IMG/VR virus record: IMGVR_UViG_3300021961_006814
Span: 1-55,361 of that record
DNA length: 55,361 nucleotides
Source: a virus
Direction: 5' to 3' (one strand)
Every line of letters starts with the position of its first letter. Position 1 is the first letter of the stretch. The translations under genes and the position numbers were made by a program. Shown piece after piece: positions 24,943-44,240 of this stretch. A model generated the notes under the pieces. That model worked only from the letters and a program-made list of their open reading frames with translations. It was not told the DNA's origin and made no database searches.

Positions 24943-25269
24943 ATGACAATAGAATCCTATGAAGAGTTTGCTCGCCAACGTCTGGATCATAATCGCCAAC
25001 GTCTGGCTCTTAAAGAACAACAAGAACAGCGTTTAACTATTACACATAGCGGCGGCCAATTTCGCATCACAGTTGAACTAATGGCATTGCTCAGTACCTG
25101 GGGTGATGAGCATATCTTATATCTCATAGACAATTATGACAATCCTGTGCGTATAGATGATACTGCGGATATGCTCGCAAAATGTAGAGAACGCTGGTAC
25201 GAAGTTATGAATGATTGGCACAATCAACATGAAGAACTGCGAAAAGTTAGGCGTGTAGAACAACTATGA
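24943..25269 (+). CDS. Hypothetical protein, first gene of accessory operon
   Basis: This 108-aa protein has a charged N-terminal helix with an internal repeat (two copies of R-Q-R-L-x-H/A-N/L... near residues 11-26) and a C-terminal Arg/Glu-rich helix. No motif identifies a function. No Shine-Dalgarno sequence precedes the ATG; the promoter -10 is only six bases upstream, which suggests leaderless translation. Its stop overlaps the next ATG (ATGA). Confidence 0.6.
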   Translation: MTIESYEEFARQRLDHNRQRLALKEQQEQRLTITHSGGQFRITVELMALLSTWGDEHILYLIDNYDNPVRIDDTADMLAKCRERWYEVMNDWHNQHEELRKVRRVEQL

Positions 25270-27130: not shown

Positions 27131-27142
27131 GGAAAAAATGTA

Positions 27143-27985: not shown

Positions 27986-28271
27986 CTTAAATAATCCTCG
28001 TAAGAAAATTGAACTTGAAGTTAGGTTGCGCTATAATAAAGATACTGGTGAAGTAATTGACAAACAACATGTAAACAAACTTGAGGCGTGGGAAGATGCA
28101 TACATCGTCATTGCAGACGAGACAGAAATACGTCCAGATAAAATGCGTGTAGTAGATGGAAAACTTGTAAAAATAGATACTAGTATCCATGTGTATTGGA
28201 CAGCAACACCAGCAGAGATTGCGAACAACAATCCATACTTTTGCAAAAGGGAAATAGATGCAGACAGTTAG
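27954..28271 (+). CDS. Hypothetical small protein
   Basis: This 105-aa acidic, soluble protein has alternating strands (KIELEVRLRYNKDTGEVI and DAYIVIADETE). It overlaps the gene before by 32 bases and the oxygenase gene after by 14 bases, so it is translated with both. I recognise no family. Tight coupling to the 2OG-Fe(II) oxygenase suggests a joint role but does not define it. Confidence 0.6.
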   Translation: MSTELEQALLNLNNPRKKIELEVRLRYNKDTGEVIDKQHVNKLEAWEDAYIVIADETEIRPDKMRVVDGKLVKIDTSIHVYWTATPAEIANNNPYFCKREIDADS

Positions 28272-29064: not shown

Positions 29065-29284
29065 AGTATTTGTTCCATTACCACATATAGTGCAAAAGGG
29101 TGATTTAATATCAAGGGACCAACTAGAAGATAATCAAGCATTGTTTACACAACTAAAGGAATTCTGTGAAAAATCCTTGGAAGATGAATACGAACTTGAT
29201 CGTACAATATATGCCCGTGGTATTCGTGTGCTTACAGATAGTAATTCTAATGTAGCAAGGTTACACGAGTGGCTGGATCGCTAA
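29054..29284 (+). CDS. Hypothetical 76-aa protein
   Basis: The short acidic protein contains FVPLPHIVQKGDLIS, an Asp/Glu-rich helix and a C-terminal RGIRVLTDSNSNVARLHEWL. A clear AAGGAG lies eight bases before the ATG. It overlaps the oxygenase stop and the next start. No family recognised. Its size and position between an oxygenase and a glycosyltransferase-like gene do not settle a role. Confidence 0.6.
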   Translation: MENEVFVPLPHIVQKGDLISRDQLEDNQALFTQLKEFCEKSLEDEYELDRTIYARGIRVLTDSNSNVARLHEWLDR

Positions 29285-30195
29285 TAGACATTGCAGACTT
29301 AGACTGCATTTATCTAAGTTATGACGAGCCACAAAAGGAAGAATTCTGGGTTCAGATACAAAACATTGTACCCTGGGCAAAGCGAGTAGATGGCGTTGAA
29401 GGCAGTGATGCAGCACATAAGGCAGCAGCCGCGGCTAGTGATACAGAACGCTTTGTTCTTATAGATGGTGACAATATACCAGACGAATCCTTCTTTGATA
29501 TTCAATTAGATATTAAGCCTGAGTATAGTGATTGTGTGTTTCGTTGGAAAGCCCGTAATGCAGTAAATGGACTTATGTATGGCAACGGTGGACTAAGTTG
29601 CTGGACAAGAGAGTTTGTCAACAGTATGCAAACTCATGAAGCAACTGATGGGACTGACGAAACTGTTGTAGAGTTTTGCTTTGATGACAAGTATCTGCCC
29701 ATGAACAATGTGTACAGCACTACCTATCCCAACGGTGATGCTAAACATGCATGGAGAGCAGGATTTAGAGAAGGCGTCAAGATGTGTCTTAACAAAGGAC
29801 GCAAGCCTACACTGGAAGAATTCAAGCAACAAGTACACGCTAAGAACTTTGATAAATTGTGCGTCTGGCAGAGTGTTGGTGCTGATGCGGACTACGGATT
29901 TGAAGCAATGTATGGTGCTAGGCAAGGCACCTATATGCTTATGCTCACAGACTGGGACTGGCATGAAGTAAGAGACTTTGCTGCACTAGACCGTTTGTGG
30001 GAACGTGAACAAGAATGGTTGGATAGTAATTTCACAGAGTATGGTGCAAAACTTAGACGCATACTAGAACTTCCTATTGTAGATTATAATCCACAACAAA
30101 GTAAATTCTTCAAACACTATTATAGTCAAACCTATCATGCATATGATCCTATGACTACAGAAATAGAAGTTATTAGGAAGGTGGAGGGATGGTAA
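29269..30195 (+). CDS. Glycosyltransferase-like protein, paralogue of 49878-51122
   Basis: Starts at GTG 29269, the only usable start after the in-frame stop at 29248-29250. The 308-aa protein has a LDCIYLSYDEP strand, an A-K-R-V-D-G-V-E-G segment, and FVLIDGDNIPD with an intact DxD motif. It then has a R-N-A-V-N-G-L-M-Y-G-N-G-G-L block whose counterpart in the minus-strand protein at 49878 reads R-N-P-V-N-G-L-E-Y-G-H-M-G-I. A C-terminal W-R-A-G-F-R-E-G-V-K-M segment also has a counterpart there (W-R-T-A-F-R-E-C-V-K-L). The DGD motif supports a nucleotide-sugar glycosyltransferase; donor and acceptor are unknown. Confidence 0.7.
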   Translation: MAGSLIDIADLDCIYLSYDEPQKEEFWVQIQNIVPWAKRVDGVEGSDAAHKAAAAASDTERFVLIDGDNIPDESFFDIQLDIKPEYSDCVFRWKARNAVNGLMYGNGGLSCWTREFVNSMQTHEATDGTDETVVEFCFDDKYLPMNNVYSTTYPNGDAKHAWRAGFREGVKMCLNKGRKPTLEEFKQQVHAKNFDKLCVWQSVGADADYGFEAMYGARQGTYMLMLTDWDWHEVRDFAALDRLWEREQEWLDSNFTEYGAKLRRILELPIVDYNPQQSKFFKHYYSQTYHAYDPMTTEIEVIRKVEGW

Positions 30196-31136
30196 TTGAC
30201 CTTAGAAAATATTTAGGCGCTAATCATACTAGAGATTTACATTTGTTAGCATTGGAAATAGCGAGTATTCATTACAAAGGTTATCCTATTGTTCTAGAAC
30301 AATACAATGAGGGTTTTGATATTGTAGAGTCTGGCCTAGAAGAAGTAGTTAAAGAGTGTGCAGATAAATTGTCTATACCCTATGATAGAATAACAGTTAG
30401 GTCTACTGACAGACTTGTAAAAAGTAAAATTTTTAAGCATGTATTTAATAAAACTGATATGAATATTTGGCGGAAATCGTCAGATTTTATGCCTACTACT
30501 GTAACTATTCCTGAAAAAAATTATTATGCTCTACTAATAGGAAGGGCTACAAATGAACGTCTTTATGCATTTAGTATTAGTAGTGCACAAAATAGTATTA
30601 GAACCTGTCACTTAGATATTGAATCTATTTCCGAACATCAAAGTGATTTTACACAATTTATTTGTGAACATAATGACAAATGGCAAGCAATTAAACATCT
30701 ATTTCCCTATAGCGATATTGGCGAATATATTAAACCGCCTATTATTTTAGGAAATGTTAAGGACATACAGTTTTGGGAGAATGTTTACCGAAATGTAAGT
30801 ATAGAAGTTGTTTGTGAAACAAGCACTGCGTCAGATACTTTTTTTATGTCGGAAAAAACACTTAGGCCTATTGCTTATGGTAGATTGTTTTTGATAATAG
30901 GTAGTCCTGAATATGAGAAAAATTTAAAAGGATTAGGATTCGATATATTTGAAGACATACTAGACAAATCATATGATAGTGTAAGTGGTTATACTCGAGT
31001 AGATAAAGTTTTTAATAGTTTGCAAAAATATCTATCAAATCCAATAGATTATAGCACAATACTAGACAGGTTGGAAAGTAATCGTAAAAAGTTACGCGAG
31101 ATAAGAGGCGAAGGCATTGGACGAGATAAGAAGTGA
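30189..31136 (+). CDS. Glycosyltransferase-like protein with SEK(T)LRP motif
   Basis: The 315-aa protein ends with a conserved block: F-F-M-S-E-K-T-L-R-P-I-A-Y-G-R then LIIGSPEYEKNLKGLGFDIF and D-K-S-Y-D. This S/T-E-K-x-x-(K/R)-P plus GLGFDxF layout also occurs in the proteins at 39589 and 51902 and recalls the donor-binding TEK region of GT-B enzymes such as exostosin or GT10 families. An N-terminal Y-A-L-L-I-G-R-A-T-N-E-R segment corresponds to L-N-G-R-P or L-N-N-R-P in the paralogues. The gene is AT-rich. The ATG is adjacent to GGAGGG. Sugar specificity cannot be read from sequence. Confidence 0.65.
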   Translation: MVIDLRKYLGANHTRDLHLLALEIASIHYKGYPIVLEQYNEGFDIVESGLEEVVKECADKLSIPYDRITVRSTDRLVKSKIFKHVFNKTDMNIWRKSSDFMPTTVTIPEKNYYALLIGRATNERLYAFSISSAQNSIRTCHLDIESISEHQSDFTQFICEHNDKWQAIKHLFPYSDIGEYIKPPIILGNVKDIQFWENVYRNVSIEVVCETSTASDTFFMSEKTLRPIAYGRLFLIIGSPEYEKNLKGLGFDIFEDILDKSYDSVSGYTRVDKVFNSLQKYLSNPIDYSTILDRLESNRKKLREIRGEGIGRDKK

Positions 31137-32494
31137 GTGATTATCTAGCAGATGCAGAACTAGCAAAAGCACGACTAGCCGGTGTTAGCGGCAGTTTCTG
31201 CTTGGCTAAATGGAAGCAAGTAAGCCTACACCTAACTACTGGGCACACAAACAGTTGCTATCATCCTCCACTACACCGCATACCAACTGAGCCACTTGCA
31301 GATAATCCCAGTGCCCTGCACAATACAGCACATAAAAAACAAAGGCGTGCTGAAATGATTGATGGCATAAAGTGCACTGAATGTAACTATTGCTGGAACA
31401 TAGAACAAAACGGTAGTTTAAGTGACCGCCATTATCGTAGTGGCGAGCCCTGGGCTATGGAAGCATTTGAGGATATAGTAGCAAACCCACAAGCAGATGT
31501 TAACCCCAGTTATGTGGAAGTAAACTTTAATCATGCATGTAATTTGAAGTGTAGTTATTGTAGTCCACAGTTCAGCAGTACCTGGGAACAAGAAGCCAAA
31601 GAACACGGCGCTTATCCTACCCGCACACCACATAATGATCCAGCACACTTTACAGGCGAGCGTAAGCCTATACCTAATAGAGAAAACAATCCATATAGGG
31701 AAGCCTTCTGGCGGTGGTGGCCAGACTTGTATAAAGACCTAAAACACTTTCGTATGACAGGTGGTGAGCCTACAATGGATCCCAATACCTATAGAGTGTT
31801 TGATTATGTGCTTGAAAATCCAAAGTCAGACTTACACCTAAATGTTACAAGCAACTTTAGTGTTGACGATCGTGTATTTGAAAAGTATTTGGACTATGTA
31901 AAACGCCTAACACAGGCACCAGGTACCGTAGAACATTTTATGCAGTTTGTTAGTTTAGATACCTGGGGTCCACAAGCAGAATACATACGTCACGGACTGG
32001 ACTTTGACCTTGCCATAAATAGGGTTGAGCGTTTTGTTCGGGAGGTTCCAGAGCGTTCAAGTCTTACATTTATTATAACAATGAACAATTTAAGTATTAA
32101 TGGATTAGAGCAATTACTTGAATACATATTATATTTGCGTAAAACATATACAAAGACTTATCAGCGTATTTGGTTTGATACTCCACTATTGTATACACCA
32201 GACTGGCAAAACATACAGATACTTCCTAAAGCATATGAGCAATGCTTGTGGGATTGTATAAACTTTATGAACAACAACCTGGACGAAATGCACGGCTTTA
32301 AAGATTACGAAGTTTTAAAGATGCGTCGTGATCTTCAGTTTATGCAAAAAGGCACAAACAATATAGAGCACAAAAGAGCGGACTTTTATAGGTTTTTTAG
32401 TGAACACGACCGTAGACGCGGAACTAACTTTGAAAAAACATTTCCTGAAATGATAGAATTTTGGAACGAGTGTAGATACCTTGCGAACAAATAG
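31133..32494 (+). CDS. Radical SAM protein with N-terminal Cys cluster (twitch-like), A
   Basis: The radical SAM motif is CNLKCSYC (C136, C140, C143), followed by MTGGEP near residue 218, the usual SAM-contacting GGE. An N-terminal Cys group (C23, C42, C81, C84, C87) fits an auxiliary Fe-S twitch/SPASM-like domain placed before the core, as in the N-terminal-twitch radical SAM family. The 453-aa protein starts at GTG 31133, overlapping the preceding stop (GTGA). It is paralogous to 34602: both share N-terminal AKW, C-Y/H-H-P, C-x-Y-C-W and a C-terminal H/Y-D-R/K-R-R...F-P-E. The reaction is unknown; auxiliary clusters suggest peptide or sugar oxidation or epimerisation. Confidence 0.88.
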   Translation: MSDYLADAELAKARLAGVSGSFCLAKWKQVSLHLTTGHTNSCYHPPLHRIPTEPLADNPSALHNTAHKKQRRAEMIDGIKCTECNYCWNIEQNGSLSDRHYRSGEPWAMEAFEDIVANPQADVNPSYVEVNFNHACNLKCSYCSPQFSSTWEQEAKEHGAYPTRTPHNDPAHFTGERKPIPNRENNPYREAFWRWWPDLYKDLKHFRMTGGEPTMDPNTYRVFDYVLENPKSDLHLNVTSNFSVDDRVFEKYLDYVKRLTQAPGTVEHFMQFVSLDTWGPQAEYIRHGLDFDLAINRVERFVREVPERSSLTFIITMNNLSINGLEQLLEYILYLRKTYTKTYQRIWFDTPLLYTPDWQNIQILPKAYEQCLWDCINFMNNNLDEMHGFKDYEVLKMRRDLQFMQKGTNNIEHKRADFYRFFSEHDRRRGTNFEKTFPEMIEFWNECRYLANK

Positions 32495-32666
32495 AGAATA
32501 CAATAGAATATTTTGGATAACAAAGGGTCAATTAATACCAGATACTTGGCCAGACATGACTGTGCTAGACATGTATAATGACTATTTTAGAAGAATGTGG
32601 TATAATACAGAGTGCTATCAATGGGAAGCAGGATTCGAAGAGGCATATAAAGAAAAGTATGGATAA
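32481..32666 (+). CDS. Small aromatic-rich protein between two radical SAM genes
   Basis: A 61-aa frame starts at TTG 32481 within the end of radical SAM gene A and stops just before radical SAM gene B. It is rich in Tyr, Trp and Phe (NREYNRIFWITKG, DMYNDYFRRMWYN, YQWEAGFEEAYKEKYG) and has one Cys. The start codon is weak and no clear ribosome binding site is visible, so it could be coupled to A or could start later. It has no recognised family. It might be a partner or a peptide substrate of one of the radical SAM enzymes; that is speculation. Confidence 0.45.
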   Translation: MRTNREYNRIFWITKGQLIPDTWPDMTVLDMYNDYFRRMWYNTECYQWEAGFEEAYKEKYG

Positions 32667-32667
32667 T

Positions 32668-34131
32668 ATGGATATTTTACTTATTAATATTCCTATAAGT
32701 GGTTTGCAATATCCTCCAGCTGGTACGAGTCAGCTTATGGGTAGTGTTATTGATGCTGGGTTTAGTTGTAAAATATTAGACCTAAATTTAGACCTATATA
32801 ATAAAGCAGGCGACGATTATCTTAAACTTTTTGATTATTTTAGCGAAGCTATGCATAATGAACCCGAGATAGAAGCTAAAGTAGATAAGATTCTGGATTT
32901 ATGGGTAGAAGATGTTATAGCAATAAATCCTAAGTTTGTTGGTATCAGTGTTTTTACTATGATGTGTCAGTTAGCTACTAGACTGTTTACGAAAAAATTG
33001 AAACAAAAATACCATGGTAAAATAGTTATAGGTGGGGCCGGTATTAGTACAAATGGCATAGCCAGCATATACAATGACTTTGGTGCTGAAATGCTTAATT
33101 TAAAACAAATAGATTATTTTATAAGAGGCGATGGTGAATTAGCACTTGTAGAATTATTATCTGGAAACGAGAAATATCCAGGTATCAATAATGACAATTT
33201 TAAACAACTAAGTTTAGATACTATACCATTTCCAGTGTATGATGATCTAATAGATTTAAATTATCAGTATGATAATAACCAAAAGTTACTTCCTATTAAC
33301 GGAAGTCGTGGATGTGTTCGGGCATGTTCTTTTTGTGATATACATGAACATTGGAAAAAATTTACATTTCGTAGCGGGCATGTATTAGCACAAGAAATGA
33401 TTGCAAACTATGAAAAGCACGGGGTAACTCAATTTACCTTTACTGATAGCTTAATTAATGGAAGTATGAAAGCATTTAGGGATTTACTGATTACACTTAT
33501 TGAATATTATAAAAAAAATAATTTACCAGACGCTTACTTTAGATTTAATGGACAATTCATAGTTAGAAACTTAAAACAACAAATACCAGAAGATTATCAA
33601 TTAATGGCACAGGCTGGGTGTTCTCATGTCATGATAGGAGTCGAGACTGGAAGTGACCGTGTTAGAGAACATATGCGTAAAAAGTTTACTACGGCAGAAC
33701 TAGCGGCTGTAATTGATCAACTAGACAAGAATCAGTTAAATTGCTTTTTTAGTATGATTTGCGGATATCCTACAGAGCGTATAGAGGATCATCAACAAAC
33801 ATTAGATATGTTTACTAATTTTAGAAAGTATGCTTTAAACGGTACAATTACTGGTCTAAACCTGGGTGCTACGCTAAGTGTAGACGAGGGTACTCCCTTA
33901 TATAATGAAATGACTGAATTAGGTTTAATGCATTTGGGTCTACCCGGAGATCGCGTTGGTATAAACTGGCTTATGCCAGACAATCCCGAGTTAACTTTAA
34001 AAGAACGTATACGCAGACGTATTGAGTTACAAGAGCATGTAGTAGAATTAGGTTACCATGTTTGGAATGCGGACAGTCATTTAAAAAGGTTAAAGGTAAG
34101 TTACGAGAAAATTGCTAATGGAACGTACTAA
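32668..34131 (+). CDS. B12-binding-type radical SAM protein
   Basis: MDILLINIPISGLQYPPAGT opens a cobalamin-binding-like Rossmann domain with a G-I-S-V-F-T strand and KIVIGGAGIS near residue 118. The radical SAM core follows with GSRGCVRACSFCDIH (C216, C220, C223 from this start). Later blocks (FTDSLINGSM, VMIGVETGSDRVREHMRK, GYPTE) match B12-radical SAM proteins, which often methylate or rearrange unreactive carbons. About 487 aa. ATGs at 32659 and 32668 are both possible; the second is preferred because AAAGAAAAG lies about ten bases before it. No D-x-H-x-x-G base-off motif is evident. Substrate unknown. Confidence 0.85.
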   Translation: MDILLINIPISGLQYPPAGTSQLMGSVIDAGFSCKILDLNLDLYNKAGDDYLKLFDYFSEAMHNEPEIEAKVDKILDLWVEDVIAINPKFVGISVFTMMCQLATRLFTKKLKQKYHGKIVIGGAGISTNGIASIYNDFGAEMLNLKQIDYFIRGDGELALVELLSGNEKYPGINNDNFKQLSLDTIPFPVYDDLIDLNYQYDNNQKLLPINGSRGCVRACSFCDIHEHWKKFTFRSGHVLAQEMIANYEKHGVTQFTFTDSLINGSMKAFRDLLITLIEYYKKNNLPDAYFRFNGQFIVRNLKQQIPEDYQLMAQAGCSHVMIGVETGSDRVREHMRKKFTTAELAAVIDQLDKNQLNCFFSMICGYPTERIEDHQQTLDMFTNFRKYALNGTITGLNLGATLSVDEGTPLYNEMTELGLMHLGLPGDRVGINWLMPDNPELTLKERIRRRIELQEHVVELGYHVWNADSHLKRLKVSYEKIANGTY

Positions 34132-34609
34132 TTTTAGATTTGATTTTACTGTGTCGGGAATACCCTTGATAAAAGTACTTGTGGATGGAAAAATTTATGC
34201 TAACCATAAACTTTACAAACCCGGATCGATATCTATTGATTGTGATTTATCAGATGGCCGTCACGTTATAGAAATAGTGCATTATGGAAAAAATTATAAC
34301 ACAGACTCTGATACCTATTTTGAACTTCAAAAACTTTATATAAATGAGGTGGATATTAAAAACGAAATATACAACTGTATACAATATCCAGACTTACCGC
34401 CCTGGGAGGAATGGCATAATAATAATGACGTCATTAAATGGAAAAACAACTTATACCTTGGTCATAATGGCAAATTAGTGTATAATGAATTTACTACTCC
34501 TAGTGTACCATGGTACCATCAAAAATTTAGTAAAGTACATCAACCAGTAGGTATGACAAGTAGCAAAGATATTCTAGAAGAAATAAAAAAAGGGTTTTTT
34601 AATGAATAA
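34118..34609 (+). CDS. Hypothetical beta-rich protein
   Basis: This protein of about 163 aa has alternating strands at its N-terminus (FRFDFTVSGIPLIKVLVDGK, HVIEIVHYGK) that look like a small beta sandwich of a carbohydrate-binding type, then an aromatic C-terminal half with P-P-W-E-E-W and VPWYHQKF. The ATG at 34118 is chosen over TTG 34112. It overlaps the end of the B12 radical SAM gene and the start of the next radical SAM gene, so it is part of the same translational chain. Binding of a glycan is conjecture. Confidence 0.55.
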   Translation: MERTNFRFDFTVSGIPLIKVLVDGKIYANHKLYKPGSISIDCDLSDGRHVIEIVHYGKNYNTDSDTYFELQKLYINEVDIKNEIYNCIQYPDLPPWEEWHNNNDVIKWKNNLYLGHNGKLVYNEFTTPSVPWYHQKFSKVHQPVGMTSSKDILEEIKKGFFNE

Positions 34610-35954
34610 CAAAAAAACAGACCAGGGCTGGGACGATTTAACTTATAAACAACAAGTACTTGACAAATTGTCTCCTACGTTTTGCGGTGCTAAATGGTAC
34701 AACGCTACTATTTGGTTAGGTTCTGGCATGACTACTAGTTGCCATCATCCACTGCCACACAAAATAGATCCTGTTGCTGTAGAAGCAAATCCTAAATTGT
34801 TACATAATACCCCTGAGAAAAAAGAACAACGTAGACAAATGCAATGTGGAGAACGCCCTGCTGGTTGTGAATATTGCTGGAAAATCGAGGATATGGGCCC
34901 TAATTTTGTTAGTGATCGTATATATAAGAGTAACATATACACACAGGATGAATTACATGCCGCCAGAAATAGCCCGTATGATGGTGACGTCGACCTCAGG
35001 ACTCTCGAAATTGCATTTGATCGTACTTGCAATTTTGCTTGCAGTTATTGCAACCCCGGTTTTAGTAGTACTTGGGTCAGAGACCTAAAACAACATGGCA
35101 GTTATCAAAGCCTTATTAGTGATGGCAGGAATCACTATACTCACCTTCACAATAGTAGCCAAGTATATGGGCTGGCAGATCGCAATCCTTATGTAGAAGC
35201 CTTCTTTAAATGGTGGGAATCAGACTTGCATAGAACTCTTAGAGAGTTACGCATTACTGGTGGTGAACCAACAATGAGTCCAGACTTATGGAGGCTTATA
35301 GATTGGTTTAAAGATAACGTAGATAAAAGTCAAACTAAACTTGCTATTAATAGTAATTTGGGAGGCAAGCCTGAATTTATAAACAAACTAGTTGAGGCGC
35401 GAGAATACTTGCCTAGTTTAGATATCTACACTAGTTGTGAAAGTGTTGGAGCCAGAGCAGAGTATATACGTGATGGTTTAAACTATGACTATTGGTGGAA
35501 TAATATTGTCAAATTAAGTAAAGCTGGTATGAATACACATTGTATGATGACTATAAATGCTTTATGTTTAGAAACACTTCCTCAGTTAATTAACAATATA
35601 TTAGACATGAGAACGGAACTTGGCAGTCATTTTGGCGTAATTAGTTTAAATATATTACGTTTCCCAAGTTTTCAATCGCCACTTGTCCTTCCGCCTATAC
35701 TTCGCAATCGTTATGCAGACGCATTAGAGTTTTTGTTCAATACTAGAGGTTTAGACATGCATAAGTTCGAACGTGGGCAACTAGAAAGACTAATTACATA
35801 CCTGCGTACAGAGAAAACTCCACATAGTAACTCTTTTGACATGCCAAAACTATATAATGACTTTAAGAATTTTTACTCTCAATATGACAAACGTAGGAAC
35901 AAAAACTTTACAGAAACTTTTCCAGAGTTTGTAAAATGGTATAACACACTATGA
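34602..35954 (+). CDS. Radical SAM protein with N-terminal Cys cluster (twitch-like), C
   Basis: CNFACSYC (C143, C147, C150) is the radical SAM cluster motif and RITGGEP near residue 225 the GGE block. N-terminal cysteines C28, C47, C82, C89 and C92 correspond to those of the 31133 protein, with the same AKW, H-H-P and C-x-Y-C-W contexts, so the two are paralogues by duplication. 450 aa is about the same length as its paralogue. The C-terminal YSQYDKRRNKNFTETFPEF repeats the end of the paralogue. AGGG lies about eight bases before the ATG, and the gene overlaps both neighbours. Confidence 0.88.
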   Translation: MNNKKTDQGWDDLTYKQQVLDKLSPTFCGAKWYNATIWLGSGMTTSCHHPLPHKIDPVAVEANPKLLHNTPEKKEQRRQMQCGERPAGCEYCWKIEDMGPNFVSDRIYKSNIYTQDELHAARNSPYDGDVDLRTLEIAFDRTCNFACSYCNPGFSSTWVRDLKQHGSYQSLISDGRNHYTHLHNSSQVYGLADRNPYVEAFFKWWESDLHRTLRELRITGGEPTMSPDLWRLIDWFKDNVDKSQTKLAINSNLGGKPEFINKLVEAREYLPSLDIYTSCESVGARAEYIRDGLNYDYWWNNIVKLSKAGMNTHCMMTINALCLETLPQLINNILDMRTELGSHFGVISLNILRFPSFQSPLVLPPILRNRYADALEFLFNTRGLDMHKFERGQLERLITYLRTEKTPHSNSFDMPKLYNDFKNFYSQYDKRRNKNFTETFPEFVKWYNTL

Positions 35955-37249
35955 CAGACAAACAAAAGAAATATTATGAAAATTATGATTACAACAGTAG
36001 ACGACCTGTTTTTGTAGAGTTAGAAGATCTCAGAGAAGACCAGCAAAAGCGACTTATGGAAAGCAAATACTTTTGCATGATTCCCTGGACGCATATACAT
36101 GGGTTCCCTACGGGAGAAGCATATCCTTGCTGTTTAGGAGAAATGAACTATCCAATTGGCAACATGCGTACAAACACACTAGAGGATATCTGGCACGGTG
36201 ATGAATACAAACTGATGCGAGATAATATGCTTAATGAACGGCCCTGTAAAGAATGTACACGCTGCTATGAACAAGAAGAGCAGGGCTTTTTCAGTATGCG
36301 TAATAGCAGTAACAAGCACTTTGGACATCACATAGGCAAGGTAGATCAGGGAATAGATCCCGACTTCAAAATAGTCTACTGGGATATACGTTTTAGTAAT
36401 CAGTGTAATTTAAAGTGTCGCAGTTGTGGACCTATGTTTAGTAGTTTATGGTATGACGATCATGTTAAAATGTATGGAACAAAACCTCCCCATCAGAGAA
36501 TAGAATGGGCTGGCAGAAATAAAACAGATATATGGGAACAGATGATCCCGCATATAGATCACATAGAGCAGATATATTTTGCTGGTGGCGAACCTCTTAT
36601 TATGCAAGAGCATTATAATATTTTAAAGGAACTTGTTGCAAGAGAACGCTTTGATGTTAAACTTATCTATAACACAAACTTTAATGAAACAATGTACAAA
36701 GATCTAGATGTACTAGACTATTGGAAATTGTTTGACAGTGTAAGCATTGGTGCAAGTTTAGACGCAAGTGGCGCAAGAGCAGAACTTATGCGTAAAGGAA
36801 GTAACTGGGATAAAATAACTGAAAATAGATACCGCATGCTAGAGACCTGCCCCAACGTGGATTTTTATATTAGTCCTACTGTTAGTTTAATGAATGTTTT
36901 TCATGTAACAGACTTTCACAGAGATTGGATAGAACGTGGACTATTAAAGCCGCAGGATTTAAATGTTAACATACTACAGAGCCCCGAATGGTATCGTATA
37001 GACTGCTTGCCCCCAGACATGAAACAGGAAGTTACTGCTAAATTACAGGAACACATTAATTGGTTATCTCCTCAGGATCATTTACAGCGGGCTACTAATG
37101 GATTTAAAAGTACAATACAGTTCATGAACGCACAAGACAACACAAAACATTTAAGTAAATTTAATCAAGTCACAGAAAAATTAGATAATGTAAGAACAGA
37201 AAGTTTTTACGAAGTTTTTCCTGAATTAGTGAGATTGCAAAATGCATAA
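35951..37249 (+). CDS. Radical SAM protein with N-terminal Cys cluster (twitch-like), D
   Basis: This 432-aa protein has FCMIPWTHIHGFPTG then PCCLGE (C42, C60, C61) and C-K-E-C-T-R-C-Y-E (C99, C102, C105), which together form a SPASM/twitch-type auxiliary cluster region ahead of the core. The core motif is CNLKCRSC (C152, C156, C159), with FAGGEPL near residue 217. The P-C-C-L and ED-(I)-W-H-G pattern is typical of SPASM proteins but here lies N-terminal. It is more similar to the 37242 and 41373 proteins than to the 31133/34602 pair. ATGA overlap with the preceding stop. Confidence 0.88.
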   Translation: MTDKQKKYYENYDYNSRRPVFVELEDLREDQQKRLMESKYFCMIPWTHIHGFPTGEAYPCCLGEMNYPIGNMRTNTLEDIWHGDEYKLMRDNMLNERPCKECTRCYEQEEQGFFSMRNSSNKHFGHHIGKVDQGIDPDFKIVYWDIRFSNQCNLKCRSCGPMFSSLWYDDHVKMYGTKPPHQRIEWAGRNKTDIWEQMIPHIDHIEQIYFAGGEPLIMQEHYNILKELVARERFDVKLIYNTNFNETMYKDLDVLDYWKLFDSVSIGASLDASGARAELMRKGSNWDKITENRYRMLETCPNVDFYISPTVSLMNVFHVTDFHRDWIERGLLKPQDLNVNILQSPEWYRIDCLPPDMKQEVTAKLQEHINWLSPQDHLQRATNGFKSTIQFMNAQDNTKHLSKFNQVTEKLDNVRTESFYEVFPELVRLQNA

Positions 37250-38396
37250 ATGCATACTACCCTGGATAAGTTTAGAGACAACACCGCTTGGTGGTGTTAG
37301 GCCATGTTGTTTATACAAAGATGAAATACCTGAGGTAAATCTACGCACCCATACACTTGAAGAAGTGTTTACTGGCGAATACATGAATAACCTGAGAGAA
37401 GTGTTTGAGCGTGGCGATAAACCCAATGCATGTGAACGCTGCTGGATGGAAGAAGATTCAGGCAAAAAAAGCAAACGAGAGTATATGTTGGAAAAATTCA
37501 AGCATATACCCTACGAGACTAATCTAATATTTTTAGATTTAAAACTTGGCAATATATGCAACCTAAAGTGTCGTATTTGCGGCAGTTGGAGTAGCAGCAA
37601 GTGGGCACAGGAACAAATAGAACATTATGGCGATAAGCATGTAGCAAAGCAATGGCTTAAAGACGGGCAGTGGCCTAGAAAGAGTCCCGGCTTCTGGGAC
37701 AATTTGGATAGTCTATTGCCCAACATAAAGTACTTTGAATTTACGGGTGGCGAGCCGTTCCTTATCAAGCAGCATTTTGATTTATTACAGCGAGCAGTTG
37801 ATCTGGGTTATGCTAAAGACATAGACATACACTACAATACCAATGGTACCCAGTTCCCTAAACAGCACGAGGTATGGAAACATTTCAAACATGTACAGAT
37901 TGCATTTAGTATTGATAATACTGAAAAACGATTTGAATATGAAAGAGATGGTGCTAAATGGAGTACAGTTAATAATAATATCAAACGATTTTTAAAGATG
38001 CGTGATGAAGGTTATCCATTTAGTTTTCAGTTGTGTATTACGTGGAATTTACAAAACACTTACTACATGCAGGACATATTAACCTGGGCTAAAACCTCTG
38101 GTATAGATGACGTACATTTTAACCTTATGCATGATCCCGAAGAATATAGTTTAAAAAACTTGCCGGAAAAAGCATATATAAAACACTTACAACGACTGGA
38201 CAAAGCAATAGTAATGCACGGCAAATTTGCAAATCAAATTCGGAGTATTAAGAACTTTATGCTGTTAGATCCACAAGTTACTACTGATCGAATCATTGAA
38301 AAGATAAGAGTAACTGACGAACACAGGGAGGTAAGTTTTGCAGATACTCATCCTGAAGTAGCGGAATTAATTGGTTATGGAAGCACTAATAGGTAA
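37242..38396 (+). CDS. Radical SAM protein with N-terminal Cys cluster (twitch-like), E
   Basis: The 384-aa protein begins directly with MHKCILPWISLETTPLGG, then PCCLYKD and ACERCWMEE (C4, C22, C23, C64, C67), so the auxiliary region starts at residue 1. The core motif is CNLKCRIC (C106, C110, C113), followed by EFTGGEPFLIKQHF. It is shorter than the 35951 protein at the N-terminus but alignable throughout. The start overlaps the previous stop by eight bases. Fe-S enzyme, probably cytoplasmic; substrate unknown. Confidence 0.88.
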   Translation: MHKCILPWISLETTPLGGVRPCCLYKDEIPEVNLRTHTLEEVFTGEYMNNLREVFERGDKPNACERCWMEEDSGKKSKREYMLEKFKHIPYETNLIFLDLKLGNICNLKCRICGSWSSSKWAQEQIEHYGDKHVAKQWLKDGQWPRKSPGFWDNLDSLLPNIKYFEFTGGEPFLIKQHFDLLQRAVDLGYAKDIDIHYNTNGTQFPKQHEVWKHFKHVQIAFSIDNTEKRFEYERDGAKWSTVNNNIKRFLKMRDEGYPFSFQLCITWNLQNTYYMQDILTWAKTSGIDDVHFNLMHDPEEYSLKNLPEKAYIKHLQRLDKAIVMHGKFANQIRSIKNFMLLDPQVTTDRIIEKIRVTDEHREVSFADTHPEVAELIGYGSTNR

Positions 38397-39033
38397 CGGC
38401 CTAGTAGGAAAAATTGTAAGCAGTATAGTTAAACCTGCATACACTTTTACTAGTAGTAATATTGGGGATATACAAAATATATCCTGGGATACCATATGGT
38501 GTGCAGCGCCAAGTGGTAATAGAATTAAAGCCCATAATAATCCTGATCAGGACACTGCTAGTGTAGATAGACTAATAGATATTTTAAATAATACTTATAG
38601 TAATAAAATTGTACTTTTTAGCACAGGCGACACACAAGTAAAACCTAACACTGTATACGGCGCAAACAGATTAAAATTAGAACAGAGCGTTCAAAAAAAT
38701 AAAAACTATAGTATTATCCGTTTACCAGGATTAATTCATAAATCTATTACAAAAAATATACTTTACGATATTCGTAACAGAGTTTGGCTTGATAAAATTA
38801 ATCCAAATCATAGACTACAATGGTTAGATTTAAACAATTTACGAGATTGGATTTATACAACAGATAAGGAAGTAAATGTTTGTAGCGAGCCAATACTAGC
38901 ACGAGATTTACTAGAACGATTTGTGCCAGATATTAGTTTTAGTGATTTAGGACCCGGTGATTATTATGATTTAAAGCCATATAGTTATACACAAGCGGAA
39001 ATATTTGATAGTATTGAGGCATACTTGCGATGA
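38377..39033 (+). CDS. NAD-dependent epimerase/dehydratase-like protein, short
   Basis: MEALIGNGLVGKIV has the G-x-G-x-x-G dinucleotide-binding loop (G6, G8, G11) immediately after the first strand. F-S-T-G-D-T near residue 81 corresponds to the S-T-x-D-V strand and VYGANRLKLEQ near residue 93 to the catalytic Y-x-x-x-K helix, but position +4 after Tyr is Arg98 and not Lys. Length 218 aa is below the usual ~300 for this family, so it lacks part of the substrate domain. The ATG at 38377 is chosen over TTG 38371. It may make or reduce a nucleotide sugar, or be a binding-only variant. Confidence 0.7.
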   Translation: MEALIGNGLVGKIVSSIVKPAYTFTSSNIGDIQNISWDTIWCAAPSGNRIKAHNNPDQDTASVDRLIDILNNTYSNKIVLFSTGDTQVKPNTVYGANRLKLEQSVQKNKNYSIIRLPGLIHKSITKNILYDIRNRVWLDKINPNHRLQWLDLNNLRDWIYTTDKEVNVCSEPILARDLLERFVPDISFSDLGPGDYYDLKPYSYTQAEIFDSIEAYLR

Positions 39034-39605
39034 TTTATGTATGTGGTGATAGTTTTGCATGCACTGATGCTCAGAGCCAAATAGTGCCTTGGGTAGAACT
39101 TATGCCTTGCAAAACATTAGCACGACACTGTGCTACTAATTTACAAATTAGCCAACAAGTAGACCATGCGTTAGAACATGCTAGTTTTATTATTGTGCTA
39201 TTTACAACTTGTGTAAGATTTGAATACAACAATGACAGTTACACACTGCATAATTTATCAACAAGCAATCTAGATGAAAATCAAAAACGGATTGTAGAAC
39301 AGCATGCTAAACATTTTTTTAATTTAGACTTGGAAATTTACAGAAACAAGTGTATAATAGAAAGTGTTCTTCAACGTTTGGTTGATAGTAATATACCATT
39401 TATTTTTGATCAAGGTGGGTTTGAACATAGAAAGTTTGGTACTGTAAACAAATACTTTAGCAAGTATGATCAGTATCGTAGTCAATATAACCTATGGGAT
39501 TATGGCGATAGTAAACAATTCAGACCTTATTTTCACATCACAGATCAAACTGTACATAACAAGATAGCAGAATATTATCAAGAAAAAAATGCCACCAACA
39601 TTTAG
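39030..39605 (+). CDS. SGNH-like protein
   Basis: MIYVCGDSFACTDAQSQIVPW has the block I GDSF motif right after the first strand. YFHITDQTVHNKIAEYYQ at the end provides a block V-like His. At 191 aa it is short for an SGNH hydrolase. The ATG overlaps the preceding TGA. It lies between an epimerase-like gene and a glycosyltransferase-like gene, consistent with glycan acyl modification, although a binding or structural role is also possible. Confidence 0.6.
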   Translation: MIYVCGDSFACTDAQSQIVPWVELMPCKTLARHCATNLQISQQVDHALEHASFIIVLFTTCVRFEYNNDSYTLHNLSTSNLDENQKRIVEQHAKHFFNLDLEIYRNKCIIESVLQRLVDSNIPFIFDQGGFEHRKFGTVNKYFSKYDQYRSQYNLWDYGDSKQFRPYFHITDQTVHNKIAEYYQEKNATNI

Positions 39606-40587
39606 TAAATTTGACACTTTTTACGGTCCTCTAACAGACTTTAACTTTAGCTCTGATAAATTAATGGGTTCTACTCCTCTTGAATGTGGCAATGATTTAA
39701 ATTTTTTAGCAAATGTTAGGGATAAACAAAACACTTTTCTCGCAATAAGAGGAGATTGGAGTCAATCTTTGCCGCCATCCAATTACGATACCTATATTAT
39801 AACTAATCTAGGTGAGGCTGCGGATCATAATTGGCTAGAGCGTATAAATCAATTTCCTGGTAGAAAAATTATAATTACTAGTCAACACACAGGCGACACA
39901 ATAAATTCAAACAATACTACATATTTTTATATGGAACACATGCATTGGTATACAAAACTTTCATTTGATTGGTTTTCTAAGCAGTATAGAAAGCCATTGG
40001 CAGATCGACAGTTCAATTTTGGTTGTTTAAATGGCAGACCAGACTGGCATAAAGAAGAAATTTTAAAGACATTATTAGATAATTATAAAAATTTACAATA
40101 TACCTGGTTAGAGGATCCTATTAATCCAAACTATCAATGCAAATATAAAATACCTATACAAAAGGTAGATGGCCATGGCTGGACTTCTAATAATCACATA
40201 TACAATGACTGTAAATTAATATGGGTTACAGAAAGTTTATGTGATAGTATAGACAATAAACTTCAAGGATACATTACAGAAAAAACTATAAAACCAATAG
40301 TATCAAAGTGCATGTTTATAATGATAGGACAAAGACTAAGTTACGCCCGGTTACGTGGATTGGGATTTGAAACATTTGAAGATCATTTTGGTATAAATTG
40401 GGACGAAGAGTGGGACTTTGAAAGAGTAGAATACACTAAAAACTTAATAAGAAATTTTGATTTTGACCTAAACCAACAGGATCTAGTTGACTATAATTAT
40501 GACTACTTTTATAATAAGTTTTTTGATGTAATAGACAAGCGTAATACTCAAATGAAAGAGCAAATACTAGAGTTTATAAACGGTTAA
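39589..40587 (+). CDS. Glycosyltransferase-like protein with TEKTIKP motif
   Basis: This 332-aa protein has FNFGCLNGRPDWHKEE near residue 141 and, near residue 223, LQGYITEKTIKPIVSK followed by FIMIGQRLSYARLRGLGFETF. The TEK...KP...GLGFxTF layout is shared with 30189 and 51902 and recalls GT-B donor sites (GT10/exostosin-like). The paralogues are otherwise divergent, so they may use different sugars. The gene is AT-rich with poly-A near the start. The ATG overlaps the end of the SGNH-like gene. Confidence 0.68.
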   Translation: MPPTFSKFDTFYGPLTDFNFSSDKLMGSTPLECGNDLNFLANVRDKQNTFLAIRGDWSQSLPPSNYDTYIITNLGEAADHNWLERINQFPGRKIIITSQHTGDTINSNNTTYFYMEHMHWYTKLSFDWFSKQYRKPLADRQFNFGCLNGRPDWHKEEILKTLLDNYKNLQYTWLEDPINPNYQCKYKIPIQKVDGHGWTSNNHIYNDCKLIWVTESLCDSIDNKLQGYITEKTIKPIVSKCMFIMIGQRLSYARLRGLGFETFEDHFGINWDEEWDFERVEYTKNLIRNFDFDLNQQDLVDYNYDYFYNKFFDVIDKRNTQMKEQILEFING

Positions 40588-40594
40588 TAAAGTA

Positions 40595-41380
40595 ATGAAT
40601 ATAATAATTAAACTTTTTGACCAACCAGACATAAAGGTTTTAGTCAATGATACAGAATCTGGATCATTGTATTACAATCTGACAAAAAAAATCAATAATA
40701 CTCAACTACCTTTTTATCAGGATACTGCAATATACACACCAGCATATCTACTACAGTTAGCACAAGAAGCCAAGAGAGTATTGGGTTGGAACTGGATGTC
40801 AGATCATTATGATATTAGTGTTGCAACCAAATTGCACAAAGATTTAGAAAATTTCTTTAGTGAATTTTCGCATGATGACATCCCAGAAGAACATGACACA
40901 TTAATATATAATCTGCACCATTGTTTACATGCTATACAGTTTGGAAATTCAGGACGACAAACTAGCCCTTTCCAAATAGAATGGTTAACTGATGAATCAG
41001 TTGAACTTCCTGAATCCTTTGAGTTTACAGAACAATGTTCTTATGGTGATCTAATTTTGCTTAATCCTTATGTGGGTCATAATCCATTACAAATATATAA
41101 CGAGAATGATTTTAGTTCCCTTTCTACTACCTGTCGTTTTCATGATATTATCAAGCCCGGTATAGTGTTAGTGCAAAGTATTTCCGAAATTAGCAAAGAA
41201 AAAATACTTTCTGAATTTAAAAAGAATGATCCTGATTTTGTTAATCTACATGGTGAACAAAAAATTAAATATTATTCCGGCGCAGCAGTTATTGGCAAAG
41301 TTCAAGATGCAAACTTGTTCAAAAGTATAATGGAATTTCCAGGCACACTAGAATTAGACCGGGTAGAATTCTGTGACTAA
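40595..41380 (+). CDS. Hypothetical protein next to radical SAM gene
   Basis: The 261-aa acidic, cytoplasmic-looking protein has a TLIYNLHHCLHAIQFGNSGR segment near residue 105 and SYGDLILLNPYVGHNPLQIY near residue 150. The C-terminus (KYYSGAAVIGKVQDANLF) resembles a small alpha/beta end domain. I recognise no family. It is translated in the same chain as the radical SAM gene that overlaps its end by eight bases. Paired His residues could bind a metal, but this is not established. Confidence 0.6.
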   Translation: MNIIIKLFDQPDIKVLVNDTESGSLYYNLTKKINNTQLPFYQDTAIYTPAYLLQLAQEAKRVLGWNWMSDHYDISVATKLHKDLENFFSEFSHDDIPEEHDTLIYNLHHCLHAIQFGNSGRQTSPFQIEWLTDESVELPESFEFTEQCSYGDLILLNPYVGHNPLQIYNENDFSSLSTTCRFHDIIKPGIVLVQSISEISKEKILSEFKKNDPDFVNLHGEQKIKYYSGAAVIGKVQDANLFKSIMEFPGTLELDRVEFCD

Positions 41381-42650
41381 GCCAGATAACCTTTGCATGG
41401 CACCCTGGACTCATACCTATTTGAGTCCACAAACTGAGCGTAGATTGTGTTGCGCTAGTAGAGAACCTGCACAGAACTTTCGCCAGTACATAGACACTGC
41501 TGATGGCACTAATGAGTATAAGCCACAAACACTAGATGAATGGTGGAACGGAGAGCATGTACGCCGTGTAAGGCGTCAGATGCTAGCAGGCGACTTACCA
41601 CCAGAATGTGAAGTATGTGATAAGAAGTTACTTAACACTGATGTCTATCGTGATTATTTCTGGCATTTATTCAGACACAAATATGAACAAATAGCCGAGA
41701 CAACAGACGACTCAGGTTATACAACTATGAAACCTGTAAGCTGGGACTACCGTTTCAGCAATCTTTGTAACTTTAAATGCCGCATGTGTGGTCCTATGCT
41801 TAGTAGCAGTTGGGAAACAGAAGCCCGCAAACAGGGAAAAATAGAACCCTGGATGGAACCCAGTGTTAAAAAACAAATTAGCAACTATCAGGATACTCAA
41901 ATAGAAGCAGAGTTTGCTCAGGCAGTAGAAGAACATCGTATAGAAGAAATATACTGGGTGGGTGGCGAACCACTGATGTATGAACAGCACTGGCGGTACA
42001 TGAAACGCATAGTAGAATTAGGGGACGGGCCTAGACTATATGCGAGATATAACACAAATTTAAGCCGTGTTAACTATAAAGGCACGGACTTGTATGCTGA
42101 TATCTTGAGTAATATAAGAGACTGGCAAATATGTGCCAGCATAGATGGAACAGGTCCGGTTGGAGAATATATACGCACGGGATTAAACTATAACACCTTT
42201 GTAGATAATTTTAAACGTGGATTAAAATATAGCAGACATCCTAGACAGATGAGGTTAGACTTTACACTAACTACACCAGGGTTGTCTGAGATAGAAAACA
42301 TTACTAAACTTGCACAAGAGCTAGGAGTGGAAATACTTGCTAAAGTTTGCTTTGCATTTACACCAGACATTGCAATGAGTCCACTTTTTCTTCCACGTGA
42401 CATTTTAAATAAGATAATTAATAGTATAGTCCCAAAAACTACCGGCGCTTTACATAGTGTACTAACAAACCTATTGGAACGTCCTACATTTGAGGAAGAG
42501 TATCCAGATACATATCAATCAGCAAGAGTAAGAGCAAAGCAAAGAATGAGCAAATTAGACGATTTGCGAGGTGGTATGAGATTTGAAGATACACTGTGCA
42601 CAGAAGCACAGGAATGGTGGAAAGGTATACCAGATGAGATGGATTCGTAA
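41373..42650 (+). CDS. Radical SAM protein with N-terminal Cys cluster (twitch-like), F
   Basis: Starts at GTG 41373, overlapping the previous stop. NLCMAPWTHTYLSP and RLCCASRE (C8, C26, C27) with P-P-E-C-E-V-C-D-K (C79, C82) form the N-terminal auxiliary Cys region; CNFKCRMC (C132, C136, C139) is the radical SAM motif and WVGGEPL near residue 193 the GGE block. The 425-aa protein belongs to the same subfamily as 35951 and 37242. It is the last radical SAM gene of the operon and is followed by a microgene and the carbamoyltransferase. Confidence 0.88.
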   Translation: MTKPDNLCMAPWTHTYLSPQTERRLCCASREPAQNFRQYIDTADGTNEYKPQTLDEWWNGEHVRRVRRQMLAGDLPPECEVCDKKLLNTDVYRDYFWHLFRHKYEQIAETTDDSGYTTMKPVSWDYRFSNLCNFKCRMCGPMLSSSWETEARKQGKIEPWMEPSVKKQISNYQDTQIEAEFAQAVEEHRIEEIYWVGGEPLMYEQHWRYMKRIVELGDGPRLYARYNTNLSRVNYKGTDLYADILSNIRDWQICASIDGTGPVGEYIRTGLNYNTFVDNFKRGLKYSRHPRQMRLDFTLTTPGLSEIENITKLAQELGVEILAKVCFAFTPDIAMSPLFLPRDILNKIINSIVPKTTGALHSVLTNLLERPTFEEEYPDTYQSARVRAKQRMSKLDDLRGGMRFEDTLCTEAQEWWKGIPDEMDS

Positions 42651-42735
42651 ACTAATTAACAGAATTAAACTTGAAAGACAGTATCGTAAGAGACTAAAAG
42701 AACTACGCAAAAGAGATCCGTTTATTTACAAATGA
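42634..42735 (+). CDS. 33-aa basic microprotein between radical SAM and carbamoyltransferase genes
   Basis: ATG 42634, inside the end of the radical SAM gene in another frame, opens 33 codons and stops at 42733-42735 with an ATGA overlap onto the next gene. Translation begins MRWIRKLINRIKLERQY and ends RKRDPFIYK. More than a third of residues are Lys or Arg in an amphipathic helix pattern. It fills the only gap between these two genes exactly, which favours a real gene over chance. It may be a nucleic-acid- or protein-binding peptide; function unknown. Confidence 0.6.
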   Translation: MRWIRKLINRIKLERQYRKRLKELRKRDPFIYK

Positions 42736-44240
42736 GCCAAAAAACATACATGGGTGTAAGTGCCGGCTTTCATGACGCTGGTGTCAGCGTTATAGATGAT
42801 TCTGGCAACATACTATTTGCCGCCCATAGTGAACGCTACAGTAAAAAGAAAAACGATGCAGAACTTAACGCTGGCATAATGGCAGAAGCATTGAGTTATG
42901 GACAGCCCAGTCAAATAGCCTGGTATGAACGGCCATGGTTAAAAAAGACAAGACAACTATATAGTGGCGAGTGGCGCAAAACACTTACTGATAAAAGTCC
43001 ACGACAACATTTATATCCATATATCCTTACAGATTCTGGAATAGATGGGTTACCTTTAAACAATTTACGAACATATGGTCACCATAAGAGTCATGCTGCT
43101 GCTGGATTCCAAACAAGTCCTTTTGATGAAGCAATAGTAATTGTAATAGATGCTATTGGCGAATGGGATACTATGACAGCCTGGCAGGCCTATTATGATA
43201 AAAAGGGTCATGCCAAATATAAACGAATTTACAGACAGATATACCCACACAGTCTAGGTCTTTTTTATAGTGCAATGACAGACCGTGTAGGTTTAAAACC
43301 TATGGAAGAGGAGTATATACTAATGGGTATGGCTGCTTATGGTAGCAAAGCAGCCTATCGTGATGTATATGAAATGGCTATAGATGATGTTTGGAAGCCA
43401 ACATTTAGACGAAATTTCCATACTGGAATAGAAACAGTGTTTGGTAAAACTTACACAAATGAAGAGCTAGCTAATGCTGCTCAGTTAATTACTGAACATA
43501 CAGTACGGGCATTTATGGAGCAAATTGCAAGAAATACAAGCATAGACAACTGTGTTTTTATGGGCGGCGTTGCACTTAATTGTGTAGCAAATAGTGAAAT
43601 ACGAGACCTGTGGAATAAAGTATGGATTATGCCAAATCCGGGAGATTGTGGTAGTAGTTTAGGTGCTGCTGCTCTTGCATATGGCAAACAATTAAACTGG
43701 CAGGGACCTTATTTGGGTACTAATATTCCAGGCACATATCCTAGCGAAGAAATAATAAGTGAACTACAAACTACTGGCATTGTAGGGGTAGCAAGTGGCA
43801 GAGCAGAGTTTGGACCTAGAGCACTAGGTAATCGTAGTTTACTTGCAGATCCAAGAGGTCCTGATATCAAAGATCGTGTAAACGAAATTAAACGCAGGCA
43901 AAAGTTTAGGCCCTTTGCTCCAATGATTTTAGAAGAGCATGCACATGATTATTTTTCAATGCCACCATTTGACAATAATCCATACATGCAAAATACATAT
44001 GTGTGTACTAAAAAGGATAAATTCCCTGCTATTGTACACGCTGATGGAACTAGTAGAGTTCAAACAGTAGGGCGAAATGATAAAACTGGTGCTAGAGATT
44101 TACTAGAAAAATGGTATGTACTTACAGATTGTCCGATGCTACTAAACACTAGTCTTAACATCCGTGGCGAGCCTATGGTAAATGATCGTGCTGATGCAGA
44201 CCGTTTTGAAAAGAAATATGGAGTTAAGGTTTGTTCATAA
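42732..44240 (+). CDS. Carbamoyltransferase, NodU/CmcH family
   Basis: The 502-aa protein has MGVSAGFHDAGVSVIDDSGN at the N-terminus, the metal-binding HHKSHAAAGF motif (H117, H118, H121), FMGGVALNCVANS near residue 276, GRAEFGPRALGNRSLLADPR in the C-terminal domain, and KFRPFAPMILEE plus LNTSLNIRGEPMV. These are NodU/CmcH/TobZ landmarks: an ATP- and carbamoyl-phosphate-dependent O-carbamoyltransferase acting on hydroxyls of sugars or natural products. It is somewhat shorter than typical (about 570-600 aa). It likely performs a late carbamoylation on whatever this operon makes. Its 3' end overlaps the opposite-strand gene by six bases. Confidence 0.93.
   Translation: MSQKTYMGVSAGFHDAGVSVIDDSGNILFAAHSERYSKKKNDAELNAGIMAEALSYGQPSQIAWYERPWLKKTRQLYSGEWRKTLTDKSPRQHLYPYILTDSGIDGLPLNNLRTYGHHKSHAAAGFQTSPFDEAIVIVIDAIGEWDTMTAWQAYYDKKGHAKYKRIYRQIYPHSLGLFYSAMTDRVGLKPMEEEYILMGMAAYGSKAAYRDVYEMAIDDVWKPTFRRNFHTGIETVFGKTYTNEELANAAQLITEHTVRAFMEQIARNTSIDNCVFMGGVALNCVANSEIRDLWNKVWIMPNPGDCGSSLGAAALAYGKQLNWQGPYLGTNIPGTYPSEEIISELQTTGIVGVASGRAEFGPRALGNRSLLADPRGPDIKDRVNEIKRRQKFRPFAPMILEEHAHDYFSMPPFDNNPYMQNTYVCTKKDKFPAIVHADGTSRVQTVGRNDKTGARDLLEKWYVLTDCPMLLNTSLNIRGEPMVNDRADADRFEKKYGVKVCS

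Follow-up and report, generated by a model that had tools for sequence, protein, structure and literature searches.

Radical SAM genes with a permuted twitch domain

The IMG/VR virus record IMGVR_UViG_3300021961_006814, analysed here as a complete record of 55,361 bases (the window), carries a packed group of genes for radical S-adenosylmethionine (SAM) enzymes. The original prediction, made from the sequence alone, listed six open reading frames (ORFs) with CxxxCxxC motifs, and all six lie on the + strand where it had placed them. PF04055 matches six ORFs of the record and no others; five of these exceed its curated cutoff and one (35951) falls just under it. Five of the proteins match NF033640 (N_Twi_rSAM) over nearly the full model length, scoring 298-405 bits where the cutoff is 170. 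Membership in the radical SAM families, which had been read from the motifs, is thus borne out by both profiles. The five N_Twi_rSAM genes are rSAM1 (31133..32494; 324 bits), rSAM3 (34602..35954; 310 bits), rSAM4 (35951..37249; 405 bits), rSAM5 (37242..38396; 333 bits) and rSAM6 (41373..42650; 298 bits). Other genes are named below by their start positions; those of the cassette and the tail-fibre-like genes at its border lie on the + strand.

Each of the five proteins has four twitch cysteines ahead of its radical SAM core: C23/C42/C84/C87 in rSAM1 (core C136/C140/C143), C28/C47/C89/C92 in rSAM3, C42/C61/C102/C105 in rSAM4, C4/C23/C64/C67 in rSAM5 and C8/C27/C79/C82 in rSAM6. The N-terminal cysteine regions are therefore real, as predicted, although the PW of the proposed PWxxxxxxxxG motif reads KW in rSAM1 and rSAM3. 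When a profile of 43 sequences (A3) was searched against the PDB, only weak matches were obtained. Among these, the N-terminal region of rSAM4 (profile positions 24-94) aligned with the C-terminal twitch domain of BtrN (4m7t, residues 183-256), with the cysteine columns matching. The auxiliary domain is thus permuted, which bears out the suggestion that it stands in the reverse of the usual SPASM order. Every cluster cysteine is invariant in each of the five groups (63-68 dereplicated alignable relatives per group, with 66/66 for rSAM1 and 63/63 for rSAM6), which argues that all five twitch enzymes are active.

An AlphaFold2 model of rSAM4 (mean predicted local distance difference test score, pLDDT, 95.1) was compared with solved structures. 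The best query template modelling score (TM-score) was about 0.39 and none of the structures, which included anSME, SkfB, CteB, SuiB, BlsE, viperin and GDGT-MAS, covers the model well. Most of the rSAM4 fold recurs in many phage proteins among the predicted structures of viral proteins, including one from KVP40, a cultivated T4-like Vibrio phage.

The sixth gene, rSAM2 (32668..34131, with an uncertain start codon in an ORF open from 32578), encodes a B12-binding radical SAM protein without a twitch domain, which is not a member of N_Twi_rSAM. It matches PF04055 and also PF02310, the latter at 27.6 bits and so below the cutoff of 32.1; its nearest NCBIfam models are of the PhpK and BchE types, all under their cutoffs, and no NCBIfam methyltransferase equivalog scored over cutoff. 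Relatives of rSAM2 occur in unrelated phage contexts (contigs L020-L032) with the signature SRGCxRxCxFCDI, and several are followed by a protein of 464-481 amino acids.

Conservation of the five-enzyme set

A search of IMG/VR confirmed at least 590 relatives, and the loci described here were drawn from the matches listed. Fetched loci with at least four N_Twi genes numbered 86, including the window, and dereplication at 90% rSAM4 identity reduced these to 68. Because the loci were found mainly via rSAM4-like queries, the presence figures are conditional on rSAM4, and related contigs are not independent. With that scope, rSAM3 was present in 68/68 loci, rSAM1 in 66/68 and rSAM6 in 63/68, and all five genes were present in 61 of the 68. 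Among these 61 complete loci the order is 1-3-4-5-6 in 53 and 1-3-4-6-5 in seven. Each of the five orthologues forms one group together with the window copy (support 80-99) when 118 sequences are placed in a tree; the five are therefore ancient, separate enzymes rather than products of recent duplication among themselves. Distance-matrix correlations were highest for rSAM1 with the carbamoyltransferase described below (0.87), rSAM6 with gene 29269 (0.82) and rSAM1 with 29269 (0.81); the remainder were lower, down to about 0.4, and any co-inherited block would correlate in this way.

Linkage is thus kept in other phages, as the operon reading had required, and independent singletons are contradicted by the co-occurrence in 61/68 loci, the near-fixed order and the five-group tree. 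A single pathway of six enzymes, as first envisaged, does not fit: rSAM2 occurs in only about 10/86 loci and is best regarded as optional cargo, so the unit comprises five enzymes rather than six. That these five form one functional unit is close to certain. The converse idea, a hotspot of unrelated mobile auxiliary genes whose radical SAM members work separately, draws on the hypervariability of the region (PMC7029224) and on the many optional genes between the five. It is set against the 60 loci with two almost identical orders, the gene fusions and the sister copies that lie together on a bacterial chromosome, and we consider it barely plausible.

The number of radical SAM genes in one virus had been singled out as the most unusual signal. 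This emphasis was dropped, given that 12 are reported in one T4-like genome (PMC5332604) and that N_Twi matches number up to 21 in a 347-kb relative found here. The retention of five distinct orthologues as a set is the feature that looks new. In a second phage lineage (L014-L017), a carbamoyltransferase gene precedes seven radical SAM genes in a row, rSAM1-like and rSAM4-like ones among them, and a PhyH-type oxygenase and a QueC-like protein are also encoded.

Among 50,697 phage records, tblastn found no match to rSAM1 or 29269 and, for rSAM4 and rSAM5, only distant matches in Vibrio phages K566 and K567 and a single-cell contig; the five-enzyme set is therefore apparently carried by phages that have yet to be cultured. 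Vibrio phage K566 (L007; 255 kb) has several clustered radical SAM genes that are distant N_Twi relatives and is a possible laboratory model.

Counterparts of the set also occur in bacteria. On a Bacteriovoracaceae contig (L039), rpmA/obg and lgt flank an array of eight N_Twi genes, which makes the array look chromosomal. In the tree, genes of this array branch as sisters to the phage rSAM1, rSAM3, rSAM5 and rSAM6 groups, with one near rSAM4, and other Bdellovibrionota loci have rSAM1-, rSAM3- and rSAM6-type members. Four further contigs (L033-L036) show phage gene order and so look like phage contigs binned with bacteria. Two Bdellovibrionota genomes, G024 (L054) and G026 (L038), have 17 and 13 N_Twi matches, respectively, on several contigs. 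The bacterial neighbourhoods of single N_Twi genes were too mixed to serve as a guide to the substrate, and a search for a GT2-like gene within the Bdellovibrionota arrays gave one weak match (E=0.005).

Three fusions were found: rSAM4 with rSAM5 (L115:10001-12556, 851 amino acids), an rSAM5-like copy with rSAM6 (L138:14637-17093, 818 amino acids) and, in a Bacteriovoracaceae metagenome-assembled genome, a carbamoyltransferase with twitch and radical SAM domains (L060:1084-3888, - strand, 934 amino acids). Carbamoyltransferase genes also lie near N_Twi genes in several bacterial lineages, and within 2.5-10 kb of them in L041/L042, L055, L060, L063/L064 and L105, while the tested genomes hold 0-4 copies each. 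This suggests that the link between the two families may extend beyond phages.

Promoters and other genes of the cassette

The cassette extends well beyond the 31133-42650 first proposed, spanning about 24943-44240. Its genes from 24943 to 42650 are all on one strand and mostly touch or overlap, which fits the predicted overlapping translation units of one operon. The conserved order begins with 22227, the tail-fibre-like 23928, the small gene 24943, 25663, 27143, a gene for a small protein and 29269, and continues with rSAM1, optional glycosyltransferase-like or other cargo, rSAM3-4-5-6, a gene of cluster 13 and the carbamoyltransferase. T4-type baseplate genes, including a baseplate wedge match, were identified in the window by PHROG search; the record may be a piece of a larger genome. 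The setting is that of a host-recognition glycan cassette, a T4-like phage with glycosyltransferases (27143 and, weakly, 29269) beside a tail-fibre gene (22227).

The first cassette gene, which encodes a small conserved protein (24943..25269; cluster 11; 58/86 loci), is preceded by a sigma70-type promoter, TTGACA-N17-TATACT (24908..24936; 11/12 match), that ends 6 nt before its ATG. A -10 box of at least 5/6 ending 4-8 nt before the start codon is present in 32 of 52 dereplicated relatives, 25 of which also have a -35 box of at least 4/6, and 26 of 56 upstream regions score at least 10/12, compared with 3.9% of shuffles. Upstream of the other cassette genes, promoter scores are near the shuffled level. 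The short spacing between the -10 box and the start codon predicts a leaderless messenger RNA, probably made by a host-type RNA polymerase, and from these features we infer early expression. A hairpin, GGGGC-GAAA-GCCCC, lies between the -35 and -10 boxes (24914-24930), so that the cassette promoter may overlap with a terminator-like stem belonging to the transcript of the tail-fibre genes.

The tail-fibre-like gene at the cassette border (22227..23909; PHROG matches; cluster 15) has a different upstream motif, ATAAATA (22192..22198), which resembles the late promoter of T4-like phages. Of the 26 orthologues of 22227, 18 have the same motif upstream, and in the window it occurs again at 827 and 17979, just before genes 852 and 18012. 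This shorter form was used because the T4 consensus TATAAATA occurs only once in the window, compared with 8.7 sites expected by chance. The sole TATAAATA site (44944-44951, - strand) lies just upstream of a - strand gene at 44235-44939. The last gene before the cassette promoter (23928..24857; cluster 12) is virion- or tail-fibre-like by sequence character, with no family match.

Three putative glycosyltransferases recur in the cassette. Gene 27143 (27143..27985; 64/86 loci) is GT8/glycogenin-like, with a profile match to glycogenin-1 (E=9e-4). Gene 29269 (29269..30195; 67/86 loci), a marker of the cassette, encodes a putative GT-A glycosyltransferase with a LIDGDN motif, whose AlphaFold2 model (pLDDT 83.5) has GT-A glycosyltransferases as its top Foldseek matches (E of 1.5e-3 and up). 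The third, 25663 (25663..26448), is a putative GT-A enzyme with an invariant DxD motif (D84, D86) and late H238/K242, and had no usable PDB profile match. Two variable GT-B-like candidates, 30189 (30189..31136) and 39589 (39589..40587), cluster together and were recognised only by motif (ET..TEK..P...GF..F in 30189); PDB profile searches with them gave nothing usable.

The carbamoyltransferase (42732..44240; 61/86 loci) is NodU/Nol-like, with both Carbam_trans_N and Carbam_trans_C domains (PF16861, E=5.7e-50; PF02543, E=4.3e-34; phrog_1601, E=4e-91), and falls below the NodU equivalog cutoff, indicating that it is not NodU itself. Optional genes encode a cytidylyltransferase-like protein of the RfaE/heptose type (25266..25670; PF01467, E=1.4e-13; phrog_7878, E=1e-31), a 2-oxoglutarate (2OG)-Fe(II) oxygenase (28258..29064; PF13759, E=2.5e-18) and a putative NAD-sugar reductase/epimerase-like protein (38371..39033; six loci). 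The epimerase-like label given earlier to the last of these agrees with an RmlD_sub_bind match, albeit a weak one (E=0.009), whereas the SGNH label of 39030 was judged by eye and has no Pfam match to back it. The gene of cluster 13 adjoins rSAM6 in 55/86 loci, and a PDB profile search with this cluster gave nothing usable. In the window, 40595 (40595..41380), a protein without assigned function, has about 20% identity to cluster 13 and is possibly a remote relative.

Outside the cassette, a single ORF of 4523 amino acids (4388-17959) separates the baseplate wedge gene from those for the tail fibres, at the position described for VrlC in pelagimyophages. A ThyX gene at 46432 adjoins a Vut_1-type transporter gene (47111-47767; PF02592, E=1e-21). 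The Vut_1 family has been linked to queuosine precursor uptake.

The ThyX gene could be taken to favour DNA hypermodification, in which the radical SAM enzymes, glycosyltransferases and carbamoyltransferase would decorate a modified base of the phage DNA; radical SAM proteins and glycosyltransferases do act in some such phage pathways. We regard this as very improbable, since no DNA-modification enzyme was recognised within the cassette and the same enzyme types are found on Bdellovibrionota chromosomes. A search for Tet/JBP in 22 related contigs (up to 353 kb) also gave no match, although control genomes were silent too and other entry enzymes were not searched.

A possible glycan-tailoring pathway and its relation to known systems

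A pathway to a sugar or glycan in which a carbamoyltransferase takes part, in line with one of the products originally proposed, remains the best reading of the cassette, and we hold it with a confidence somewhat short of even. The cassette would be a conserved biosynthetic unit that large T4-like phages keep in their host-recognition region and that host RNA polymerase transcribes from its own sigma70-type promoter. The GT-A/GT8-like enzymes 25663, 27143 and 29269 would build or extend a glycan, which rSAM1, 3, 4, 5 and 6 would tailor by redox chemistry or epimerisation: a 5'-deoxyadenosyl radical formed at the CxxxCxxC cluster would take a hydrogen from the ring, with the electron handled by the auxiliary cluster at the N terminus, as in BtrN and HygY. 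The NodU-like enzyme would carbamoylate a hydroxyl; that carbamoylation finishes the pathway, as first suggested, is supported by nothing here. The product would most likely change the envelope of the infected cell, leading to receptor masking or superinfection exclusion, or else decorate the fibres. The glycan substrate, the epimerase or dehydrogenase chemistry, the timing and the role are all inferred. A fuller version, in which five permuted-twitch enzymes of phages and Bdellovibrionota act in succession on a carbamoylated surface glycan, changing its stereochemistry or oxidation state to give a sugar structure that the host cannot make, is more tentative.

Several observations weigh against a glycan. 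We know of no N_Twi_rSAM enzyme with an established substrate or product. Genes 25663, 30189 and 39589 were assigned as glycosyltransferases from motifs only, and the L039 array has no recognised glycosyltransferase, so the five enzymes may not need one. The nearest solved folds of rSAM4, all partial, are peptide maturases (SkfB, CteB, anSME) as much as the sugar enzyme BlsE. Each group has one extra conserved cysteine (C447 in rSAM1, C322 in rSAM3, C300 in rSAM4, C265 in rSAM5 and C254 in rSAM6), a candidate sign of epimerase chemistry; however, these positions do not correspond between groups and C300 stands just before a strand in the model, away from the expected active site, so that they offer at most a weak hint. 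The substrate is the chief doubt, as twitch enzymes often act on peptides.

The five enzymes might instead modify a protein, most probably a tail fibre or one of the small conserved proteins next to it (24943, 27954), introducing cross-links, D-residues or other changes by radical chemistry, with the glycosyltransferases attaching sugars to the same protein. SPASM/twitch enzymes commonly have peptide substrates (PMC5682303), the cassette adjoins tail-fibre genes and includes conserved small proteins, and SuiB joins SkfB and CteB among the closest folds; the array without recognised glycosyltransferases points the same way. However, the features of a maturase for ribosomally synthesised and post-translationally modified peptides (RiPPs), namely an adjacent precursor, a RiPP recognition element (RRE) or a C-terminal SPASM domain, were not found: the auxiliary domain is N-terminal, the Pfam-scanned cassette proteins include no RRE domain or precursor-like gene, and the small neighbouring proteins have no conserved Cys/Gly-rich core peptide. 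Fusion and linkage to a carbamoyltransferase, a family with mainly sugar or small-molecule hydroxyls as known substrates, and a promoter distinct from the late-type motif that precedes the fibre genes also argue against it. We therefore consider protein modification rather unlikely. A lipid, glycolipid or small diffusible metabolite, in place of a polymeric glycan or modified protein, would accord with the match of rSAM4 to GDGT-MAS and the distant relationship of rSAM2 to lipid and P-methyltransferase types. These fold and family matches are generic, though, and the scanned cassette proteins include no acyl carrier, ketosynthase or isoprenoid genes, making such a product improbable.

Radical SAM catalysis is costly and sensitive to oxygen, and the fact that about 70 phage loci keep five distinct enzymes of this kind together implies that one product is strongly selected for. 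The set, found in dozens of uncultured large phages and partly in relatives of predatory bacteria, places the five enzymes beside sugar-transfer genes and a carbamoyltransferase, a combination that points to a multi-step pathway, probably for an unusual surface sugar. If the product is a surface glycan, phages would run complex radical chemistry to rewrite cell surfaces, giving a first function for the N_Twi_rSAM family and a source of new enzymes for sugar editing. With its promoter and fusions, the gene set provides handles on a question about marine phage "auxiliary" genes that has so far stood at annotation level. In the open-access literature we found no description of the five-orthologue set, its promoter, the fusions or the bacterial counterpart, and no match for an N-terminal twitch domain or for hypermodification with a carbamoyltransferase.

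The best functional models are BtrN and HygY, since both are twitch enzymes that act on sugar-like rings. BtrN is a dehydrogenase acting on an aminocyclitol, and HygY, according to the title of its report, is an epimerase in which dehydrogenase activity appears on mutating one cysteine. The auxiliary domain is shared and its cysteine columns match those of BtrN, whereas the twitch domain is C-terminal in BtrN and N-terminal here, and the similarity of the cores is general only. The Nol/NodU-like carbamoyltransferases of cyanophages and HTVC008M belong to the same family (phrog_1601), with about 26-37% identity between the window protein and those of named phages, whose records lack the radical SAM set (tblastn with rSAM1 and 29269). 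That marine T4-like phages carry radical SAM genes and cassettes is already known. The T4-like environmental genome TARA_ERS488813_N000010, likened to the window by description, has its 12 radical SAM genes read as Fe-S metabolism rather than as one pathway in the available text (PMC5332604). The host-recognition clusters of pelagimyophages and cyanomyophages share with the window a T4-like phage, a hypervariable island by the tail fibres, glycosyltransferases and radical SAM cassettes; in the part of that report available (PMC7029224), such cassettes are added in one genome pair, with no ordered five-enzyme set, whereas the set described here recurs in about 70 loci. All five enzymes share the N-terminal twitch order of NF033640, and where that single model covers them all under a name that gives no function, they resolve here into five co-occurring orthologous lineages.

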